A DNA stretch of 64,000 nucleotides from Echinostoma caproni (lineage: Eukaryota; Platyhelminthes; Trematoda; Plagiorchiida; Echinostomatidae), in contig UZAN01039526.1 of the NCBI GenBank assembly GCA_900618425.1, positions 79,683-143,682 of the forward strand, written 5' to 3'. Of this stretch, positions 27,301 through 61,580 are shown piece by piece (positions within the stretch are counted from its first letter, which is position 1; each line of letters begins with the position of its first letter). The notes under the pieces were generated by a model, which had not been told where the DNA came from, did no database searches, and worked only from the letters and a program-made list of their open reading frames with translations. Both the position numbers and the translations under genes were made by a program.

Positions 27301-27411
27301 ATGCATGCTCGTACCCAGTAGTGATGAGACGGGTATTTTTGATGAAGGGGTGTACTTAAGAGCAACCTGTCACCGGTAGGGTTGTTTTTCGCTGGAATTC
27401 CTAAACTTCTG
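24330..27411 (-). mobile_element. CR1-like non-LTR retrotransposon, copy C (interrupted)
   Basis: Reading down the minus strand, the AP endonuclease starts near 27400. It has ESWPNPHVADALAFINRF near 27200, corresponding to ETWLNQNVEDALAQIDGF of copy B, and MDDFNHAS near 26890. The reverse transcriptase follows from 26339 (SKRFRPIVFTS). It is interrupted at about 25963, resumes at about 25560 (EDPLQFTY, TLDAVASF), then shows GVLHGVILSPFLFPIYISDL near 25260-25200 and the motif YAND at 25156-25167. The C terminus (KYLGVIIDTILKW, FLYGSSMVLLGNSKK, STTRSAYRLL) ends near 24519, followed by a 3' tail. Stops, frameshifts and the Asp-to-Asn change at the catalytic site make it dead. Confidence 0.85.
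25600..25963 (-). mobile_element. Penelope-like 3' fragment nested in CR1 copy C
   Basis: Between the two halves of the CR1 reverse transcriptase, the minus strand reads CVYSFTCSCGTRYIDRT. This is a Penelope-type GIY-YIG core (C-x-C-G-x2-Y-I-x-R-T). It is followed downstream in broken frames by NTLCAQKQFVQALKLPWST near 25660, resembling the conserved K-P-x-L-C-x-Q-K C-terminal block of these elements. The flanking CR1 text (ending around HLSIIL, resuming at EDPLQFTY) is contiguous in copy B (LQSLATIPHDPLQF), so this piece is an insertion of roughly 400 bases. It is 5'-truncated and contains stops. Confidence 0.7.
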
Positions 27412-27775
27412 TGGGGAAATTCGTCGTGTATATAGCACATGAAACGTGAACTAAAAAGCTAGGAAGTAAGGTCCATGGCCTGCAACAGGGTCACAAAGAT
27501 GGGCTATGCTATATCGTGTACTTGGAAAATGAAAACGTTTTGTTCCTTATCGGCCCATTTCATGCATAAAAACGGTTTGATCAGCTGCCCAGTGGCTGAG
27601 TGGATAGCATGCTTGCGTTCTGACTGTGAGGTCCTGTGTTCGATCCCCAGTTGGGTCGATGGATTCGCACAGCTGATGAGACCCAACCAGATCGAAACAG
27701 CTATCCAGTGCTTCCTAACTTTTCAGTTCACGCTTCATTTGCTACATATACGACGAATTTTCACTTTGAAATTGA
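27412..27775 (+). mobile_element. Hammerhead-SINE head-to-head composite, copy 1
   Basis: The unit has four parts. A left arm (27415-27467) is the reverse complement of the element's own tail. A linker (about 27475-27535) is shared with copy 2. A tRNA-like head carries an A box (TGGCTGAGTGGA, 27593-27604) and a B box (GTTCGATCC, 27638-27646). A hammerhead ribozyme (27661-27715) is followed by the tail (27711-27762). The A and B boxes suggest an internal RNA polymerase III promoter. The arms pair imperfectly over about 52 bases. Compared with copy 2, most of the inverted left SINE between tail and linker is deleted. It sits at the 5' edge of CR1 copy C. Confidence 0.8.
27661..27715 (+). ncRNA. 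Hammerhead ribozyme (type I), copy 1
   Basis: Catalytic core CTGATGA is at 27673-27679 and GAAA at 27694-27697. Stem II is GACC/GATC with loop CAACCA (one C-A mismatch). Stem III is ACAG/CTAT with no extra loop (one mismatch). Stem I is GCACAG (27667-27672) with CAGTGC (27706-27711), one mismatch, plus an outer GGA/TCC pairing. Cleavage is predicted after C27705. Both core strands are intact. The competing upstream GTTGGGTC (27650-27657) is complementary to GACCCAAC within stem II and could form an alternative, inactive fold. Hammerheads embedded in tRNA-related SINEs are known from schistosomes; assignment here rests on motif and covarying stems. Confidence 0.8.
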
Positions 27776-27849
27776 ATCCAATCCTTCATTACTTATGATT
27801 GCGAAATTCAAGAGAATTAAGTGTGGTCTAGTCAAATAGTGGGGTAAAC

Positions 27850-36795: not shown

Positions 36796-37060
36796 TGTTG
36801 AGAAACGACAGTCAGTGTGTATTCTTGATCACAAAACAACCAGCAAATATGTGTGATCAATCGGGCGTACGCGAACAGACGTGGTGATACGCCAATCAGA
36901 TCGTGACCTTGGCACTCAGGTTGATCGATCGGATGACAGCTATTTGATTCACCTTATTCATCCTATCAGGAGTCGATTCGGCTTGGGCGTCACGAGCGCA
37001 CTTGTAGTGTGACGCACGTCGCTGCGTGGCAGGACGGATTTTGTGCGCTCCGTCCCAACA
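36796..37060 (-). repeat. Candidate 3' LTR of the Gypsy-like element
   Basis: On the minus strand a purine run AAAGGGGAGG (37070-37061), a typical polypurine tract, is followed directly by TGTTGGGACG at 37060, a plausible LTR start. A candidate end TCTCAACA falls at 36796, giving a 265-base LTR with short imperfect inverted ends. The element has no 5' LTR in this window, so the boundary cannot be confirmed by comparison. Confidence 0.45.
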
Positions 37061-37148
37061 CCTCCCCTTTTGAGATGTACGTTCGCAGTTTGGGGTTGAT
37101 TTGCAGTCTTGTGGTTTGCGTCCGTTTTCTGCTTGTACGTCGGCTTGG

Positions 37149-37737
37149 NNNNNNNNNNNNNNNNNNNNNNNNNNNNNNNNNNNNNNNNNNNNNNNNNNNN
37201 NNNNNNNNNNNNNNNNNNNNNNNNNNNNNNNNNNNNNNNNNNNNNNNNNNNNNNNNNNNNNNNNNNNNNNNNNNNNNNNNNNNNNNNNNNNNNNNNNNNN
37301 NNNNNNNNNNNNNNNNNNNNNNNNNNNNNNNNNNNNNNNNNNNNNNNNNNNNNNNNNNNNNNNNNNNNNNNNNNNNNNNNNNNNNNNNNNNNNNNNNNNN
37401 NNNNNNNNNNNNNNNNNNNNNNNNNNNNNNNNNNNNNNNNNNNNNNNNNNNNNNNNNNNNNNNNNNNNNNNNNNNNNNNNNNNNNNNNNNNNNNNNNNNN
37501 NNNNNNNNNNNNNNNNNNNNNNNNNNNNNNNNNNNNNNNNNNNNNNNNNNNNNNNNNNNNNNNNNNNNNNNNNNNNNNNNNNNNNNNNNNNNNNNNNNNN
37601 NNNNNNNNNNNNNNNNNNNNNNNNNNNNNNNNNNNNNNNNNNNNNNNNNNNNNNNNNNNNNNNNNNNNNNNNNNNNNNNNNNNNNNNNNNNNNNNNNNNN
37701 NNNNNNNNNNNNNNNNNNNNNNNNNNNNNNNNNNNNN
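37149..37737. other. Assembly gap (589 N)
   Basis: A run of 589 unresolved bases lies between the integrase C terminus and the polypurine tract of the Gypsy-like element. Any open frame crossing it is an artefact of reading N as sense. Confidence 1.
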
Positions 37738-40112
37738 TGTGAACTTTGAGTCCTTTCTTCGTGGCATTTCGTTGGCCTTAATTGATTTGCGTGACGCGAC
37801 CAAACTTTGGACTGTATTTGTACCTCATACAATACAGCTCCACGTCTTCTCAGAATTCTGCCAGTTTCCCAGGGAGAACCGTCTTTTCCATAGCATCGTG
37901 CTAACACTGCTTGACCTGGGGCAAAGGAACGTGTAAAGGCTCCGTGTCGACGATTGAACTGTTCTTCCATTTTTCGGTTCCTTTCAGTGTTGTAGGTGGT
38001 TGGGCGCAAAAGGTCAAACGGCATTCTTAACTTTCGGTTCATCAATGCCTCTTCTGGGAAAACTCCTTTTGGTGAGTTCGGATTTGGAGTGCATCGATAT
38101 AGGAACAGAAACCTTTCGATGACTTCTGCGGTTGCTCCCTCCCATTTTGATTTCTGGAGTGCCCGCTTGAAGGTATCCACAAATCTCTCCGTTTGGCCGT
38201 TTGATTGCGGATGATTAGGCGGGGAGAGTACGTGGGTAATGCCATTCCGCTTGCAGAATTCTTTGAGTTGTTGTGATGTGAACTGAGTGCCGTTGTCGCT
38301 AACTAGTGTTTCAAGGACATCAAAACGACTGAAAAGCTGCCGGAGGTGTTCGATTGTTGAGGATGACGTAGGGCTATCCGCAGGGAAAATCTCGGGCCAT
38401 TTGCTGAAGGCATCGATAGCGATAAGGTAAGAACGACCATTGATCGGCCCTGCAAAGTCAACGTGAATACGCGACCACGGTTTGTCAGGAATTGGCCAAC
38501 TGGAAAGCTTGGTTTTTACTGGCATCTTGGATGCAAAGGCGCATTGATGACAGTTTTGGACGATTTCTTCCAGATGTTGGTCGATGAACGGCGAATAGAC
38601 GTAACTACGAACGAGTGACTTCATACGGTTGATTCCCGGGTGTCCGGTGTGGAATTGTTGAAGCACTCTTTTCTGTAGCGTCTTTGGAATCACAACTCTT
38701 TCAGCGAATAGAATGCAACGGGTCACAATCGACAACGAATCTTTCCGTCGGAAGAACTGGCGCAATTCGGTAAAGTTGTACGATTTCGGCCAGAGAGTGT
38801 GAAGGAATTGTGTGACCTTCTTGAGCAGCGGGTCGTGTCGTATTTCCTCCCTAACTTCTTCAGCTGTTACTGGTGTATTGCGTGGAGCATCGGTAACGAG
38901 GAATTTGACGTCTGGTTCCACCGATATCGAAGCAACGACTCTTTCTTCGGGCTCTGGCCGTTGAGAGTTGATAAGCCTTGACAGGGCATCTGCTTGACCA
39001 AAGCAGGTAGTCGATTGATAGCGGATCTCAAAACCGTAGCTGAGGAGGATCAGTGCCCAACGTTGAAGGCGGTTAGCAGTATAGACTGGAATACCTTTTT
39101 TGGAGCCGAAAATTGCTATCAGCGGCTTATGGTCGGTGAGGAGTGTGAATTTTCGACCGTACAGCATTTTATGAAACTTCGTCACAGCAAAGATGATAGC
39201 TAGGGCTTCTTTTTCAATTTGACTGTAGTTTCGCTCCGTTGCAGTTAACGATCTAGCGGCATGTGAAACGGCCTTCTGTGATCCATCTGGTAGCTTGTGA
39301 GAGATGACTGCACCAACTCCTCTGTTTGAAACATCGGCTGCCACAATGATATCATGTGACGGGTCAAAGTGTGTCAGAAGCAGGTCTGAGCTGAGCATTG
39401 ACTTGACGCAATCGAAGGTATTCTGGCATTCTGTTGACCAATGCCATGGTTGCTCTTTGGCTAGAAGTTGGTGCATTGGAGCTCGGACGCGATGCAAATC
39501 AGGAACAAATGCACTGTAGTGACTTACGAGGCCCAAAAATGATCTGAGTGTAGTCAAATCCTTCGGTGGTGGCATATTTTGAATGGCTTTAATGTTCTCT
39601 GGATCTGGTCGACGGCCATCTTTGTCCAGAATGAAACCAAGATATTTGATGGAGGGCATGAATAAGTCACATTTGTCTTCTCGGACTCTGAAACCATAAT
39701 CTTGAATCCGTCTCAGCACTGTATTTAGTCGGTTAAACAGTTCTTCTTGTGTGCGACCCATAACGATTATATCATCCAACTATGCGGCAGTACCCGTGAT
39801 ACCACTCAACATCGTGTCCATCAGCTGCTGAAAAATTGCTGGTGCAGACTTGACACCGAAAGACAGACGATTGTACTGGAACAAACCGCGATGAGTGTTT
39901 ATCGTGAGTAGTTCCTTTGAGTCATCAGCAACGCTCACTTGGTGATATGCATCTGATAAGTCAAGTTTGGCGAAACAGATACCACCATTCAGTTTTGCGA
40001 AAATGTCTTCTGGTATTGGAAGTGGATATTGATGATCTTCTACTGAGGCGTTCAGACCCGTTGAGAAATCTGCACAAATGCGCACCTTGCCATTGGGTTT
40101 CTTGATGACCAC
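37738..40112 (-). pseudogene. Gypsy-like pol pseudogene (RT, RNase H, integrase)
   Basis: The reverse transcriptase part (40112-39783) has NGKVRICADFS, FAKLDLSDAYHQV and LSFGVKSAPAIFQQLMD. It ends at a TAG (39780-39782) exactly where the Tyr of the Y-L-D-D motif belongs; the frame continues as LDDIIVMGR. Counting from there, RNase H carries D149, E189, D216 and D264. The integrase has a zinc-binding region near residues 377-413 (HTGH, CHQC) and the catalytic triad D441, D495, E531, with 35 residues between the last two. A GPY/F-like C-terminal module (SPWETGRILRRRGAVLYEV) follows near 635-655. Apart from the single stop and missing 5' part, this frame is intact over about 680 residues, so the copy is fairly young. 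Confidence 0.9.
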
Positions 40113-40175
40113 AATCGGAGCTGCCCATGATGAATAATTGACCGGTTTGTTGACACCGTATCTACGGTCTAACGA

Positions 40176-40587
40176 ATTTCCTGTGCCTATGTGTGTGCGT
40201 GCACCTGATTGTGCATAGCTTCATCATTTCAGTCAATTTCCGACTGCTTTCATGAAAGTGAGAACGTTCTACTAATTCGACCAACAAGTGGCCCACGCTT
40301 ACTTGTCATTGATTTGACCTTGAGGGACGCAAAAATTAATCGCGGGAAACAAATCATGGTTTTGTATAAAATCAGCCAGAACAACAAAAGAAAACCTTGG
40401 AAAGATTTTACTTTTGAGACCTTATAACCAATCATGTGCATCCTCTTACATAAAGATTGGCTTGGACAAATTTCTCCCAGTTGTGCTAGCCACAATGATT
40501 TGACTATTAAGGTTTGGAGGGTAAAATTCACTAAGATATGTGCTGATTGAATGAGGAAAATAATCAGAAGCTGTTGTGTATCTACAC
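40176..40587. other. No gene recognised
   Basis: Short interval between the truncated Gypsy-like element and a SINE; only chance frames on both strands. Confidence 0.5.
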
Positions 40588-40776: not shown

Positions 40777-41937
40777 AGAAAAGACCGTATAACTTTTCCC
40801 TTGATCGATCTGTTCCTCTAAAGATCCACCTGACAAGGGATGATGCTATGGTGATTTATCATTTCGAGATAGTGCAAATCAGGGAGTCGTCCGAAACTGC
40901 GTTCTGACCAGCAATGGAAAACAAACACATTGGGGTCGATCACGGTGCGATCAACACTACTATCTGCATACAACTTACCCTCTGATCGGGAAACGTAATG
41001 ATTGTTTTTGGATATTCCTAGTCATGCTCTTACACATCATGTAGTGGAAAAGTGGTTGCATAATGGTAGCTATTGGCGCAATTTAAGGTCAAGGAATATC
41101 CGAAAACAATTGTTCACTCACCGACTCGTTTTCTCCATGCTATCATGGGAATATTCAAACTTTTGAAATGTAATAATCTCTAATTGTTTGCGTTATTTAG
41201 TTGACTTATTTTTCCCCTCCCGATATTTCACGGTTCGATACACCACTAAATACGACTAACATACCGGTTACTGCAGTACGAACATGATCTGTATGCGTTG
41301 GTCAGGGGATTCACTACGAAGTGAAATGTGTTGTCCCCACTCGATTCAGTTCCCCTATCTCTCTTTTATTAACCGCTGTATCCTCAGTTGACTTGACTAC
41401 TGAGAGCGATCTCGATCACGTATTATGTTCATGCATAAGCGGTTTATTTCTCGTGAGAGAGTTTAAATCTACTATTCCATAGAAATTCGCTACTATTAGT
41501 CTGAATGAGAGGTGCGACAGCTCATTTGGTGAACATCCATTCACACGAATGTATTTCACAGTCAAACGAAAGACTCATACAAATATTCAACTATGGGTTT
41601 TGGCACACACCCACTGATCACCGACGAGAAAGTGAATGTTGTAGCTCATTTGGTGGGCGGAATCAGTTACATATAGTCATGAGCAATATTCTGCGATGAC
41701 ATTGAGATCAGATCAGTATTCTGTGAACAAAGCTCAGTCAGTATATGCAACCATATGATGACTTTTAACCGTCTAATCTCGGTAACGTGTGTGTGTGTGT
41801 GTTGCACAGCTTACTTCTGTCGCAATAGGAACAAGAAGTAATGATATGAGATGGAAGGCTGAACGAAATGGTGTGATGTGCGTTGTTGTTGGTGGTGGTG
41901 AACAAAGTTAAAGTTTCATGAGATTGATGGAGGATTT
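40777..41937. other. No gene; small inverted repeat and GT run
   Basis: Inverted arms of about 20 bases (ATTGTTTTTGGATATTCC near 40999 and GGAATATCCGAAAACAAT near 41092) flank about 75 bases and may be a decayed small transposon. A (GT)8 run lies at about 41787-41802. The remainder shows no coding feature. Confidence 0.5.
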
Positions 41938-42355
41938 GATTCAATTTCAAAAGGGAATTCGTCGTGTATAGGGGAAATGAAGCGTGAACTGAAAAGCTAG
42001 GAAGCACCGTACAGTACTGTACAACTGACTTATCAGGTTGTGAAAGTTTCCAACCGAGTCATAACCCCGGAGGCTAGTGCTGAGATGAGTGAGTTCCGTG
42101 GCCCGCAACAAGCTCGCAAAGATGGGTTGTGCTATATCGTGTAAATGGAAAATTAAAAAGAACTGTCTGATAAGCTGCTCCGTGGCCGGGTGGGTAGCAC
42201 GCTTGCGTTCTACCTGTGAGGTTCCGGGTTTGATCCCCAGTTGGGTCGATGGATTAGCACTACTGCTGAGACCCAACCAGGTCGAAACAGCTGTTCAGCG
42301 CTTCCTAGTTTTTCAGTTCAGGCTTCATTTGCTCTATACACAACTAATTCGCTCT
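41938..42355 (+). mobile_element. Hammerhead-SINE head-to-head composite, copy 2
   Basis: The left arm at 41938-42007 is the inverted tail and pairs with 42298-42355. Further in, the minus strand carries a decayed inverted SINE: a CTGATAA-like core at 42030-42036, an ACAG/CTGT stem inside the 14-base palindrome at 42009-42022, and a B-box-like region near 42050-42062. The linker (about 42100-42160) matches copy 1. The right, plus-strand SINE has an A box (TGGCCGGGTGGG, 42183-42194), a B box (GTTTGATCC, 42228-42236), a hammerhead (42251-42304) and a tail. The unit is thus two SINEs joined head to head. Confidence 0.8.
42251..42304 (+). ncRNA. Hammerhead ribozyme (type I), copy 2, core mutated
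   Basis: Stem II is perfect (GACC/GGTC, loop CAACCA; 42270-42283). GAAA is at 42284-42287, and stem III is perfect (ACAG/CTGT, 42287-42294). Stem I is GCACTA (42257-42262) with CAGCGC (42296-42301), two mismatches. The core reads CTGCTGA (42263-42269) instead of CTGATGA, which should abolish cleavage. Its defects are at different sites from copy 1, so the pair together define a complete hammerhead. The predicted cleavage position is after T42295. Confidence 0.7.
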
Positions 42356-42693
42356 TTGCGAGATAAAGTTGTGCAATTTGTACGTAGTGACGTATTTCTG
42401 GTGTGAGATGAATAAAAGCAAGCCTCCTGTTAGTCCTGTGATGCCAGTAGGTGCTAATTTCGTGGATTGTAATTTGCGGAACGTGATCCTCAGAAGGAGG
42501 ATAGCAGAACCATTTCGAATGACTGACTTCTCCCGAAACTTCCAGAAGATCGACGGGGTTTTTACTTTTCCACTAGATATCGTCACTACAGAGCCACTTC
42601 AAGTAAGCAAAGTTTCCATTTCTTTCGAGCCATCAAAATTATTTGACATATGTGGACGAGGGGGGGGGGGCGGGANGGGAAGTTGCTGGAAAG

Positions 42694-43660: not shown

Positions 43661-46600
43661 CATCCGTGACTTACGGTACAAATTCAAAATCGAAATGATC
43701 TAAAATGTATTTCCAATTCACAATCTCATAAATTGGTCTGAAGATGCATCAAAAGCCTTCCGACGCCTTCAGACATATCGCATCAGATTCCATTTTGCTA
43801 AATCATAGTCCGTATAACAGTTGGATATATAAAGATAATAACATATATGCGTACCAAATCCCATGACCCTACTTATAATTGTTCATAAAATGGAGGTGCA
43901 CTAAAAACAATTCGCATGCAAAAAAACTTTGCACGGAATGATAATGGAGGCTTTGGTCTCTGATGAGTAGTCTGTCAGTTGTTCCACCAACAACTCGATA
44001 ACATCTATCGAATGAATGCACGAAAACTTTGTTCTGAAAATTGACTGTATAGGGTGGCGACAATGGAAATGCGAAAACTAAACATAAGTAGGGGTTGCTA
44101 GAGAGGATATCAGATGATGACTACGTTGCTCGTAACAATTATTTGTCACTTTAAGCAAAAGTTCGTAACTCGGGGATAGGGGTTGTCCTACTCCATCTGC
44201 CACCAATACACACACAAAGAAACACACACCTGTGTACTTTTCATCTCCTTCGCTTATGATAACCGAATGGGTGAACCCTCAGTTGAACTTCTTAAAATAA
44301 TCATCGATTTGAAACCGGTCTATCTGTCGTGCATACTCCGGTGTCCAAAAATTAGTCAGTTTCGATTCGGATGTTAAAACAAGTTCAAAATTCAAGCGAA
44401 CAGGTTTGCTAAACCAACTGCTCAATTTAAACGCGTCACACAGAATGGTTGTTTTGTTTAACCGAGTACAAAGATTTCAGGCTTAAGCGAACTGCCACAA
44501 CAAGGCCTGTTGCTTGTTTCTGGTGTACTTTCTCCGTTCACCTACAGTCCCATTGTATCTCAAAAGTATTTCCATAGGTATGGAGTTCATATTAATACGC
44601 GGTCCATGAATCAGTAAACACAAAGCTTTGGTCTGGAGATATCATTTGTTCTATCGATTGAATTCTGTATCTGGTGCAGACAGTTGCAAACCTAAGCAGA
44701 TAATCTCATGTAATTAAGCGTTTATGCTTCTCCAAGTGCATAACTAATCAAATAGCAAGAACAAGTAACAAATTACACTTTTAGATGCAAACCTTTTGAG
44801 ATTTTCGAAACTCGTTTCCAAATCTCGAATCTCATGAATGATGCATATTTCTTACAGTAAAACCAAATCATAACTTCCTCATAAACCGCAGTTTTATTGG
44901 CGCCAGGGGGTAAGTTCAGTGGGAGATATTATAATTTCTCGTTTGTTCCACTACGAATGGGGAGGTCAACATACTTTATCAGATGAGATGCTGATTAACA
45001 AAATGATGATGTAAAACATCTGAAGAAGACCCGACGGATATGAAAAGGGTACATATGAACTCATAGTTACCCCTGAGTAGTAGTATGGGATGATTGTAAT
45101 GGACTTAGGCTGGCAACACGGACAGACAAGAGTAGAGTTCTTACTGTCATTTTTCAACAATCGGGATGTTTGGAAAAATGGTGTAATCCGACAGTTGGCC
45201 ATAATGGTGCTATTTGTTTTCCTCTCCCTCAATGAAGCCCAATTCCTATTAAACTAATACGTTCTTTCCCAATTAATATGTATTGTTAGCTTGATAAAGA
45301 TCAACGATGTTCGCTCCACGTATTTCGAAATAGGCTATCATTATTATTATTATTAATATCGTTGTTGTTCTTACTGAAGACGATGACGACGACGATGCGT
45401 TAGACGGTCTTTCATTCAGGTTTCACCTTCGCTCACAACCCTCACTCCCTCAAGCTTATCAAACACGTCGAAAACATTATAGACCCGAGTTTCACTCTCC
45501 TTCGAATGGTAATGAAATAACAACGACTCATTCCGGAAAGCGTCTAGAAGAACTGGCCTAGAATTATAATGTATGAATATATAAATATTATTTACAGCTT
45601 GATTTCTCATCGTTAATTGTAAATTTGAGGGGGAAGCCGACCAGGTAACGAATGGAAACTTCACATAAGATCTAATTTGAGAGGATTGTCAAAAGTGCAG
45701 TTGGGTTGCTGATTCAGGTTCATGCACCTCAGAAAAATCGGGGTCAGTGGTTTATCAAAGTCTATGCATTTTATTTATGTGCCGATGGTTGATGAAGCGA
45801 GAGAAACGTTCTCCGCATATTGCCGGTTAAAAATAGTCTCAGCTTCCCTCGCGTTCCATTTATCCTAAATAGAAACAAATCAACTGAGCATTCGCAGCCT
45901 CACTTGTACAGCCACAGCCAAATGTTTATATAGCTGCAATGGGCAGCTGGACGCTGATCAATATTCAATTCGTTGCATTCCACTCCTGTTTCTAGCTCAT
46001 GCCACTTGAGCGCGCTGTCAAAGATCCGCTCAAACAGTCACCGTGCTTTTATTCATGCATGTCCGACGACGATCCTATGCAATTTGACATAGTTTTTCGC
46101 TGATTGCATTTGAGTGCGCACATGTGGAGACATTGGGTCAATCGGTCCGTCAAAGCACTTTTGCAACCGGTAAGCTTGTTTATGACTGAAAATAATCGAT
46201 GGTCGCTCGGTTATTCTCCACTCGCCCGATACGGAAAATATTTAAATATAATAAAGGTCAGGTGTTCTTTCATTCGATCAGGTATTGACCTAAATCAACT
46301 TTCCGATTCATTTTGATGAATCCATTTCCACTTAGTCCCACTCCCTTGCAATAAGCATCACTGGTTTGCGCAGCCTTGTCCGTTTTATGGTAGTCCTTAA
46401 AATCCGTATTAACGTACTTGAGGTTGATCGATTCAGAAAATTTGCATTTTTTCGACTTTATGCGTAGGGCACTACTGAATTTGTTTAACCGTAGACAATG
46501 GTGATGTTCAATCCTCATTTTCCAAACTATTAAGTGTTAATCAAGTTTCACTGATGATTTATTAATCCACACAACTCCTTATCATTGTGAGTAATAATGA

Positions 46601-48204: not shown

Positions 48205-49095
48205 TGTTCGGTATGCGTTTTGCACCTTCAAACTGTAAAATGCTACCACAAGATTGGGTTGGCCCAGCACCCAGTCTCACCCCGACTTAGGAAGTAGTAG
48301 AAGAAGTAGACAAGTTTTGCTATCTGGGTAGTTATATCTCACCTGGCGGACGCATCACAGATGAAATGTCGGCGCGCATGTAAAACACTCGGTTAACATT
48401 TGCCAACTTGAGACATCTGTGGTGCGGTCGCGACGTGAGGCTGTCCGTGAAGGGTTGAGTGTATGCTGGGGCACTTCGGCCAGTCCTGCTGTACGGTGCA
48501 GCGACTTGGCCACTACGGGAACAGGATAAAACTAGACTGTCGGTGTTCGAACACCGCTGCCTACGTCGCATTGCAGGAGTCTGGTGTGGAAACCGGACGA
48601 GCAATGCTGAGGTTAGGCGCAGAGTTTTAGATAATTGTAGTCGTCCACTGGAGCAAGTAGTCGACCTTCATAGATTACGTTGGTTGGGGCACTTGTTACG
48701 CATGTCACCAGATAGGTTGCCACGGCGAGCGATGTTAACCGAGGCAGGTAGTGGGTGGAAGAAAGTCAAGGGTGGTCAAATGAAGACCTGGCATGAGGAT
48801 ATAAAAACACTAACCAGTAGTCTGGGTCACATAGGTCCCATTAGGCTCCTGAATGGGGACCTCGGAATGACGGTCACCGAAGGTTAGAGACACTGCGCGA
48901 TATGGTTGGGTGTCGTAAACAGTGGCGCTCGTGCATCCACTTATTATTCTCCTAATACCACTCTGTATATACTTCTCCATCTTCCGCTTGAATTTGTCTT
49001 CATCCTGCTCTTTTATCCAAACGGGACACCAAAAGACAGGAACCAAAACCGGCGCACGAAAGTGCATGGTTAATGGTTTTACAAACTGAAACTGT
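48205..49095 (+). mobile_element. RTE-like element, 3' half with tail
   Basis: Broken frames begin FAPSNCKMLPQDWVGPAP, then VDKFCYLGSYISPGG, LTFANLRHLWCGRDVRLS and ALRPVLLYGAATWPLREQ. The main 142-residue frame (48459-48887) contains VFEHRCLRRIAGVW, LHRLRWLGHLLRMSPDRLPR and GHIGPIRL. This is the thumb and C-terminal region of RTE-type proteins. The 3' tail at about 49040-49095 (CAAAACCGGCGCACGAAAG, then TGGTTAATGG) recurs at 61.5 and 55.5 kb. Stops interrupt the 5' portion. Confidence 0.8.
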
Positions 49096-57921: not shown

Positions 57922-59101
57922 TTAAATTTGAAGGAAGTAAGTCCGAGGATCTTCCACAAATTGCTTGACTTTCCGCAAGAATGTAACCGCCTCACGTCCA
58001 TCAATTAATCGATGGTCGTAGGTGAGTGCTACATACATCATCGGTCGTATAACAACCTGGCCTTTGTGTGCCACTGGTCGGTCGAAAACTCCGTAGAGAC
58101 CGAGTATTGCTGATTGTGGTGGATTAATTATTGGAGTCCCAAATAAGGACCCATATACACCACCGTTGCTGATTGTGAATGTTCCACCATCCATGTCTTC
58201 AACCGCCAACGTACCCTGCCGAGCTTTTTGACCAAGATCGTAAATCTCTTTCTCAATTTCGAAGTAGTTCATTTTATCCACATTTCTTACTACAGGTACC
58301 ACAAGTCCCTTTGGAGTAGCCACTGCTATACTGATGTCGATATAATCTCGATAAATAATATCTCCACCGTCAATTACAGCGTTTACCGCAGGTTGGTCTT
58401 GTAGAGCTACGGCTGAGGCTTTGGCAAACGTGGACATCATGCCCAATTTGACACCATGCTTCTTTTGAAAAACCTCCTTGTATGAATTTCGTAGCTCTAA
58501 TAAGTTGGAAAGGTCGATCTCATTGAATGTGGTCAACATAGCACATGTGTTCTGCGCATCCTTTAGCCTTTGTGATATACGTAGACGCATCCGCGACATC
58601 TTGACACGTTGTTCTCCTCGTTCTCCAGTAAATGATGCAGTGCTCAAACCAGGAGGAACCGCAAGTTGTTGTGCCTCCGCAGATTTTGGAGCCGGTTTAG
58701 GTTGTTCTTGCGCTGCACGGGGCTCTTTCGGTGCTTGTTCAGAGCTTTTGGGTGGTGATGGTGAACTCTTCGCAGTAGGTGCTTGGTCAGCCGCTTTTTC
58801 TTTGACAGCACCCTCTACGGCAGCAGCATCATCAACCTTGAAAATTTCTTGACCTGGAACAACTTTGCCTCCGTCCTCAACCAGGAGTTCAGTAACCACA
58901 CCGGCGAACGGAGCAGGCACCGGCACATTCGTCTTATCGGTTTCGATTTCTGCAACGACCTCGTCTACTCGTACTTGATCTCCAACCGCTTTCTTCCATA
59001 CAATATCACCTTCGCTGACGGATTCGGCGAAAGGTGGTACGGAGACAGACCGCACAGCCCCCATTGGGGTGGTCGTGTGAAGAAAACGGACCACGTGACA
59101 C
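57922..59101 (-). CDS. DLST: DLST, terminal exon (2-oxoglutarate dehydrogenase E2)
   Basis: Dihydrolipoyllysine succinyltransferase is the mitochondrial E2 core of the 2-oxoglutarate dehydrogenase complex; it passes the succinyl group from lipoamide to CoA in the TCA cycle. Counting from 59112, residues 22-95 form the lipoyl domain, with the lipoylated Lys at residue 60 in ETDKTNVPV. Residues 96-165 are a Pro/Ala/Lys-rich linker with no E1/E3-binding domain, as in animal DLST. Residues 168-396 are the catalytic domain, with active-site H367 and D371 in [25 protein letters not shown] and [15 protein letters not shown] are strongly conserved. The long open frame begins with TTG, not ATG. A pyrimidine-rich tract and CAG at 59104-59102 mark a splice acceptor, so the exon should start at 59101 inside the presequence (RFLHTTTP resembles a cleavage region). 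Upstream exon(s) were not found. Confidence 0.95.
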
Positions 59102-61004: not shown

Positions 61005-61580
61005 AGACAGCGAACACCGCCGTCGCATTTCACGAGTCTGGTGGGGCAACCGAACCAGCGATGCCGAGGTTAGGCGTACAGTTTTAGGTAATCGCACGCG
61101 TCCACTGGAGCAGGTAGTCGGCCTCCATAGATTACGTTGGTTGGGACATGTGTTACGCATGTCACCAAATAGGTTGCCACGGCGAGCGATGTTTACCGAG
61201 GAAGGGCTTGGTTGGAAAAGATCAAGGGTGGTCAAACGAAGACCTGGCATGAGGGTATCAAAATCCTAACCAGGAGACTGGGTCACATAGGTCCCGTTAG
61301 GCTCCCTGGCTGGGGACCCCGAGATCATAGTCACCGATGGTTAGAGGCACTGAGCGATGTGGTTGGGTGTCGCAAACAGTGGTGCTCACGCATCTACTCA
61401 TTATTCTCTTAACACTAGTCCGTATGAATTCTCTATATACTGCTTCAATCGGCTTTCAACATTCCAATCTTCATCCTTCTATTTTATCCAAACGGGCGGC
61501 CAAAGGACAGCAACCCAAATTGGCGCACGAAAATGCATGGTTAATGGTTGTAAAAACTGAAACTGAAAACACTCAAATTC
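61005..61580 (+). mobile_element. RTE-like element, C-terminal part and tail
   Basis: It starts abruptly within the EHRRRISRVWWGNRTSDAE block. It continues with LEQVVGLHRLRWLGHVLRMS and PNRLPRRAMFTEEGLGW, and after a frameshift with TKTWHEGIKILTRRLGHIG, LPGWGPRDHSHRWLEAL and VGCRKQW. It matches 48.5-49.1 kb closely in protein and DNA, including the 3' tail (61500-61575; GGCGCACGAAAATGCATGG). This copy keeps the GWGPRDHSHRWLEAL block that is frame-shifted at 48.85 kb. Confidence 0.8.

Follow-up and report, generated by a model that had tools for sequence, protein, structure and literature searches.

The hammerhead-bearing repeat present twice in the window (the whole 64-kb stretch of DNA analyzed, on contig C583 of a 426.5-Mb assembly of 12,689 contigs) is probably a non-autonomous retroelement of ~300–360 nt, in which a 5′ region is followed by a tRNA-Gln-related part with A and B boxes, then by the type I hammerhead and finally by a tail. 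The inverted pairs in which its copies often lie, which the preliminary description of this DNA had not seen, are its most informative feature. Together with a one-sided extension and, at two loci, insertion as a single event, they match the structural features described in the literature for Penelope-like elements (PLEs), from which we infer that PLE enzymes probably mobilize this hammerhead SINE. The preliminary description had recognized a short tRNA-related retroelement that bears a genuine hammerhead and resembles schistosome Sm-alpha, and the Rfam match, the tRNA-related part and further copies all agree with it. It had also suspected a distinct family; the element is probably separate from Sm-alpha, and at least three families, differing in head and tail, were found. 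Our survey covered 364 kb, made up of the window and 300 kb of the same assembly (pieces L001–L030, to which L-numbers refer below).

Both window copies had been described as hammerheads, and a scan against the Rfam type I model had been proposed. Copy 1 (27667–27711, plus strand) matched RF00163 at 36.2 bits (E 2.1e-5), above the gathering score of 34, and copy 2 (42257–42301, plus strand) at 29.7 bits (E 0.003), below it; model R1, for which copy 1 is a training sequence, scored copy 1 at 68.8 bits. Cleavage of copy 1 is predicted between 27705 and 27706. The hammerhead architecture stood up to this comparison, and the pairing details did not: in the Rfam alignment, copy 1 carries a mismatch in each stem (A-A in stem I, where five of six positions pair; C-A in stem II, where three of four pair; C-A in stem III). 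The match in copy 2 lies within the 42251–42304 originally proposed, with its core altered to CTGCTGA and two stem I positions without a partner. Both copies are decayed and neither is intact. A majority sequence taken from ten natural copies pairs fully in stems I, II and III, as had been guessed from combining the two window copies. Judged from sequence, the type I hammerhead is real and self-cleavage is predicted.

Four further hammerheads exceeded the Rfam gathering score in L001–L015, and permissive scans of L001–L019, L021 and L022 added one of 53.1 bits in L021 along with weaker ones. A covariance model built from the ten copies, with matches counted at E up to 1, found 32 matches in the 364 kb, 27 of them at E < 0.01 (the ten training sequences included), and a strict descriptor found four sites, three fully paired (L014, L021, L027), against one in reversed sequence. 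Over the 32 matches, 84.9% of stem cells were paired vs. 78.2% after shuffling, and double-changed cells numbered 31 vs. 12.5 (0/500), with slid versions giving 3–10 and each helix contributing. The compensatory changes that the preliminary description had proposed to look for among genomic copies were thus present in each stem. Among the 25 family-A-like rows, double changes (3, 3 and 1 in stems I, II and III) were not above shuffles; compensatory change mostly lies between families, across which the hammerhead is structurally conserved. On the basis of head (tRNA-related) and tail type, with the hammerhead kept throughout, the window copies belong to family A, copies in L008, L004, L017 and L009 to family B, and those in L021, L003 and L008 (5558–5602) to family C.

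Copy number is high by direct count: a genome search returned 3492 first-look candidates (40 of them scored), and a 37-nt piece of the tail has 145 exact copies in the genome vs. none for the reversed control. Scaling from 27 matches per 364 kb, a non-random sample, would give ~30,000 matches per genome. Pattern scans gave no matches in viral contigs and none in genome contigs. Fragmentary copies include a lone piece of a family-B tail at 45400–45464 (minus strand) of the window, a family-B tail-only hairpin at L013 6118–6262, in which two inverted tails overlap by a few bases without tRNA-related part or hammerhead, and hammerhead pieces at L026 1275–1464, probably of family C, which lie head to head in both orientations ~120 bp apart.

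Segment models divide family A into a 5′ region (147 positions; model AF), the tRNA-related part (AR), the hammerhead and a tail (88 positions; AT), and family B is built alike. Copy 1 begins with an inverted tail as its left arm (27414–27465, minus strand; short form, tail model 1–52; inverted repeat I1), followed on the plus strand by a partial 5′ region common to copy 2 (27465–27539; model 59–133, E 1e-17), the tRNA-Gln-related part with its A and B boxes (27576–27664), the hammerhead, and a long-form tail (27712–27796; model 1–84). ARAGORN reported a tRNA-Gln (ctg) at 27585–27659 as the sole tRNA in the window, copy 2 not being called. In copy 2, the left arm is a long-form inverted tail (41916–42003, minus strand; model 1–88) whose homology extends to 42014, into only the 3′ edge of the hammerhead. 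On the plus strand follow a 5′ region common to L016 and L019 (42031–42178; model 2–146, E 2e-45 as a training sequence), the tRNA-related part (42166–42254), the hammerhead and a short-form tail (42302–42360; model 1–58). The element had been called tRNA-headed. Instead, the tRNA-related part is internal, whereas in a tRNA-derived SINE it would head the retroposed unit: up to ~140 nt upstream of it are common to both window copies, L016, L019 and L023, and L002, L003, L021 and L022 share shorter stretches. Transcription of the RNA that was retroposed therefore started well before the tRNA part.

Inverted repeats flank both window copies, at 27404–27466/27711–27773 in copy 1 (63 nt, 81%) and at 41949–42014/42291–42356 in copy 2 (66 nt, 83%). 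A probable third, old inverted pair occupies 262–486, with a minus-strand part at 262–371 (blastn 371–262; AF 315–371) and a plus-strand part at 390–486 (core model). Among 49 core-model hits in the 364 kb, all ten neighbors less than 200 bp apart are head to head (nine pairs belong to family A and one to B), for which the chance under random orientation is near 1e-6. Within 2000 bp, 11 head-to-head, three tail-to-tail and four tandem pairs were counted. Elsewhere in the genome, a second match occurred in four of the 40 scored regions, head to head in every case, and the close pairs among 100 listed of the 145 tail copies (C1432 and C1717) were both head to head. The inverted repeat was absent from the three copies checked for it (L014, L016, L018). 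Fuller inverted arms than that of copy 2 occur at L002, L013, L022 and L027; a full inverted hammerhead upstream in the window copies was considered and rejected, its alignment being no better than shuffles.

In family A, one arm of a pair extends farther out than the other. Ends were taken as local-alignment limits, accurate to a few bases. Both outer ends could be mapped in seven family-A pairs, and all seven have one long end (model 84–88) and one short (48–62), a difference of ~30 nt; solo copies whose tail could be mapped number five, and all have short ends (51–65). Expressed in model positions past the hammerhead cut, family-A tails stop at either 54–71 nt (~60) or 90–94 nt (~92). Family B is less regular, its ends being unequal in two of four pairs and both long in the other two. 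Inner junctions vary from locus to locus.

We compared the outer ends of twelve pairs for target duplications. L022 has an exact duplication of 12 bp (nominal P 0.003), L013 one of 11 bp with one mismatch (nominal P 0.003), and copy 2 a probable one of 7 bp (TAAAGTT at 41909–41915 and 42364–42370; nominal P 0.043). The remaining nine of twelve pairs had no duplication at nominal P < 0.05, seven of these showing nothing or 6-bp matches (P 0.07–0.10), and five of the twelve, including L002, yielded no candidate in this automatic test. At L002 a 9-bp duplication with seven of nine positions identical, which the test had missed, was recognized by eye.

Two of these sites could be reconstructed in their empty state. 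The flanks of the L022 pair, joined through one copy of its 12 bp, align unbroken at the junction to two window repeats (72% in alignments of 203 and 198 columns, each with a single gap); these repeats, at 48664–48865 and 61122–61318, are related copies of another repeat and are empty-site relatives for L022. The L002 pair interrupts a piece of PLE endonuclease. When its flanks are joined with one 9-bp copy, homology to L009 continues four residues past the junction (14–97), and the right-hand homology (103–150) resumes after 26 nt vs. 27 expected, a frame slip of 1 nt. Since a single target duplication suffices to restore each empty site, both arms most likely entered in one event at L022 and at L002.

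Descriptions of PLEs contain close counterparts of these features. Adjacent inverted pLTRs are reported there, head to head most commonly; target duplications measure 8, 9 or 10 bp, and one of the two arms bears a 31-bp tail, an arrangement that the authors read as the product of self-priming (PMC3846280). PLE insertion is described as the cutting and extension of both target strands, with internal initiation at two adjacent sites and a tail consisting of the sequence between them (PMC11167929). The spacing between hammerhead and ends is similar too: in that account the PLE cut is at +26 and initiation at +111–118 of the ORF, by subtraction a spacing of 85–92 nt, vs. the 90–94 nt from cut to long end here. 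Differences are that the present element encodes no protein, contains a tRNA-related part and is otherwise unrelated in its 5′ region, and that PLE hammerheads are described as minimal (PMC7761336) whereas this one is canonical in three stems.

Under the proposed PLE mechanism, a PLE complex would cut the target on both strands, and the resulting 3′ ends would each prime cDNA synthesis on an element RNA, one cDNA starting at the outer and the other at the inner of two start sites ~30 nt apart. Joining of the two 5′-truncated cDNAs head to head would then leave a target duplication of 7–12 bp. The hammerhead would probably be part of a PLE-type 3′ recognition module; the PLE hammerhead itself is reported as dispensable for insertion in vitro (PMC11167929). 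In the least supported step, a self-complementary 8-nt stem III would pair two RNAs, so that the ribozyme may act as a dimer. Two variants were tried and rejected: a PLE reading-frame start hidden in the tail (one 30-codon frame, best E 0.58 against 120 PLE-type proteins), and a template RNA cut by the ribozyme, since mapped inner arm starts do not cluster at the cut site.

Pieces of PLE-type reverse transcriptase (RT) and endonuclease both occur in the same DNA. The RT piece in L009 matched RVT_1 at E 2e-9 and is closest to Sparganum/Spirometra, followed by Trichobilharzia and schistosomes; one coral relative (P0180) also carries GIY-YIG. PLE-like pieces were found in L002, L003, L007, L017, L023 and L026, and at least five GIY-YIG matches at E up to 0.001 occur genome-wide among 150 scored of 188 candidates; that of the L009 PLE scores 14.3 bits, below the Pfam cut-off. 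Several points stand against PLE mobilization. LINE-type RT pieces are also present, only half of the mapped family-B pairs have unequal ends, and three-quarters of the pairs tested have no nominally significant duplication. Near the PLE pieces in the 300 kb, no PLE with the SINE tail or this hammerhead was found, and the L009 PLE has neither a hammerhead nor a terminal repeat in the stretch read. As a separate observation, a PLE-type hammerhead with a well-paired stem II lies at L002 3117–3188 (minus strand), where HH9 scores 26.7 bits, less than its gathering score; a PLE-like RT motif follows ~2.4 kb downstream on this strand.

The element could alternatively be an ordinary LINE-mobilized SINE of Sm-alpha type, whose inverted pairs arose when cDNA from one template primed itself by snapping back. 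LINE-type RVT_1 reading frames do occur in the window, duplications of 7–12 bp fit LINEs too, and partner arms in eight family-A pairs have 20 derived letters in common vs. 9.0 expected. Arm-arm identity in ten pairs ranges from 0.49 to 0.87 over all shared columns, and the two arms may derive from one template or from two. Self-priming is also how PMC3846280 reads head-to-head PLE copies, so snap-back and PLE mobilization are compatible. Snap-back gives no reason, however, why one arm should be ~30 nt short in seven of seven pairs while mapped solo tails are short as well, and comparison of the SINE tail with two LINE 3′ ends in the window gave no match. We consider this LINE-based origin unlikely. 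A long retrotransposon pol reading frame lies in the window at 36990–40220 (minus strand), with RVT_1 in 39783–40220 and an assembly gap (Ns) at 37149–37737.

Less likely again is that the element is a metazoan non-LTR retrozyme spread by circular RNA, with incidental inverted pairs. Such retrozymes are described as small non-coding elements of similar size whose type I hammerhead has a short helix III (PMC7229834), all of which holds here, and schistosome repeats are discussed beside that group (PMC4918200). They are, however, described as tandem repeats, whereas inverted pairs are frequent here and the 49 core-model hits include no tandem (or tail-to-tail) neighbors within 400 bp and only two tandem pairs within 1000 bp. 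Most copies, moreover, span the cut site, so their templates would have been uncut or religated.

The inverted ends of 63–66 nt on both window copies would also suit a MITE, that is, a DNA transposon that is bounded by terminal inverted repeats and has picked up a tRNA and a hammerhead, but arm lengths and inner junctions vary by locus, solo copies have no left arm, the two outer ends differ in extent, and the duplications vary in length (7, 9, 11 and 12 bp), making this origin highly improbable. Independent nesting of separate SINE copies, head to head by chance, draws on the abundance of the element and is just as improbable given the single orientation of all ten close pairs and the fact that the L022 and L002 pairs each fill one site.

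Among known elements, the closest kind is Sm-alpha/Sj-alpha, with which we compared the present element through published descriptions and the Rfam model. A tRNA-related part (tRNA-Gln in S. mansoni; PMC2770079, PMC4918200), a type I hammerhead and very high copy number are common to both; the Sm-alpha-like W36.2 is 335 bp, similar in length to the fluke element (PMC8490949), and the combination of tRNA-Gln and type I hammerhead was already known from schistosomes (PMC2770079, PMC4918200, PMC8490949). Unlike Sm-alpha/Sj-alpha as described there, the fluke element forms head-to-head pairs with a one-sided extension, occurs in several families with differing heads and tails, and belongs to a host probably outside Schistosomatidae. 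A DLST gene at 57922–59064 (minus strand) encodes a protein whose best named relatives are from flukes, with 74% identity to Paragonimus and 75% to Schistosoma intercalatum, and 83% to its closest record. In a tree of 18 proteins chosen from 120 listed, it pairs with that closest record (100/99), lies outside the schistosome group (100/99), and falls in a grouping (85/86, drawn open) that includes Dicrocoelium, Paragonimus, Calicophoron and opisthorchiids.

Mobilization of hammerhead repeats and retrozymes by PLEs has been proposed from their co-occurrence (PMC7761336), and searches of open-licence PMC text turned up no earlier account of a hammerhead SINE with PLE-type inverted pairs. The ~30-nt one-sided extension, the head-to-head arms and the empty sites are structural evidence, testable at scale, on which enzymes move hammerhead repeats. 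If PLE mobilization is true, it would widen the rule that SINEs borrow LINE enzymes, explain the place of the hammerhead in the element, and provide many natural insertions for the study of two-ended PLE integration.

The form of the ribozyme bears on the dimer step. Stem III is an 8-nt self-complement, ACAGCUGU in families A (majority) and C and ACUCGAGU in B, and co-folding of two molecules gave an exact double hammerhead for three of six sequences (the family-A majority, L021 of family C, and a B-type sequence) and not for copy 1, copy 2 or L027. The minimum fold of a single molecule was a hammerhead in none of the six, as expected for a helix III of 2 bp. Dimeric action is known from amphibian and PLE hammerheads (PMC7229834, PMC7761336), and this ribozyme may act in the same way. 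We put forward only tentatively the fuller reading that this is a PLE-dependent, not LINE-dependent, SINE-like element whose insertions record two-ended PLE integration, and whose stem III may hold two RNAs antiparallel, making the ribozyme a pairing device as much as a cutter.

An upstream segment had also been suggested to pair with stem II and switch the ribozyme off. The 8-nt complement (27650–27657/27680–27687) is present in both window copies, and the off-switch was rejected because its fold depends on context and its covariation does not exceed shuffles. Double changes in the 8-bp pairing numbered 0 vs. 1.7 shuffled in the 25 family-A-like rows, and 8 vs. 9.4 in all 49 rows. For the family-A majority, the predicted probability of the pairing was 1.00 with the tRNA part and fell to 0.02 once the tail was added. 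It was high for copy 1 with its tail (0.97), copy 2 (0.99) and L014 (0.94), and near 0 for L013, L016, L018 and L022.

Another family of near-perfect long hairpins, with ends TTGGCAATTTGTTTGCAAACGTTT, occurs at L022 5770–5899 and L014 7146–7269. These hairpins match microRNA precursors below threshold on both strands in Rfam and look like a foldback element.
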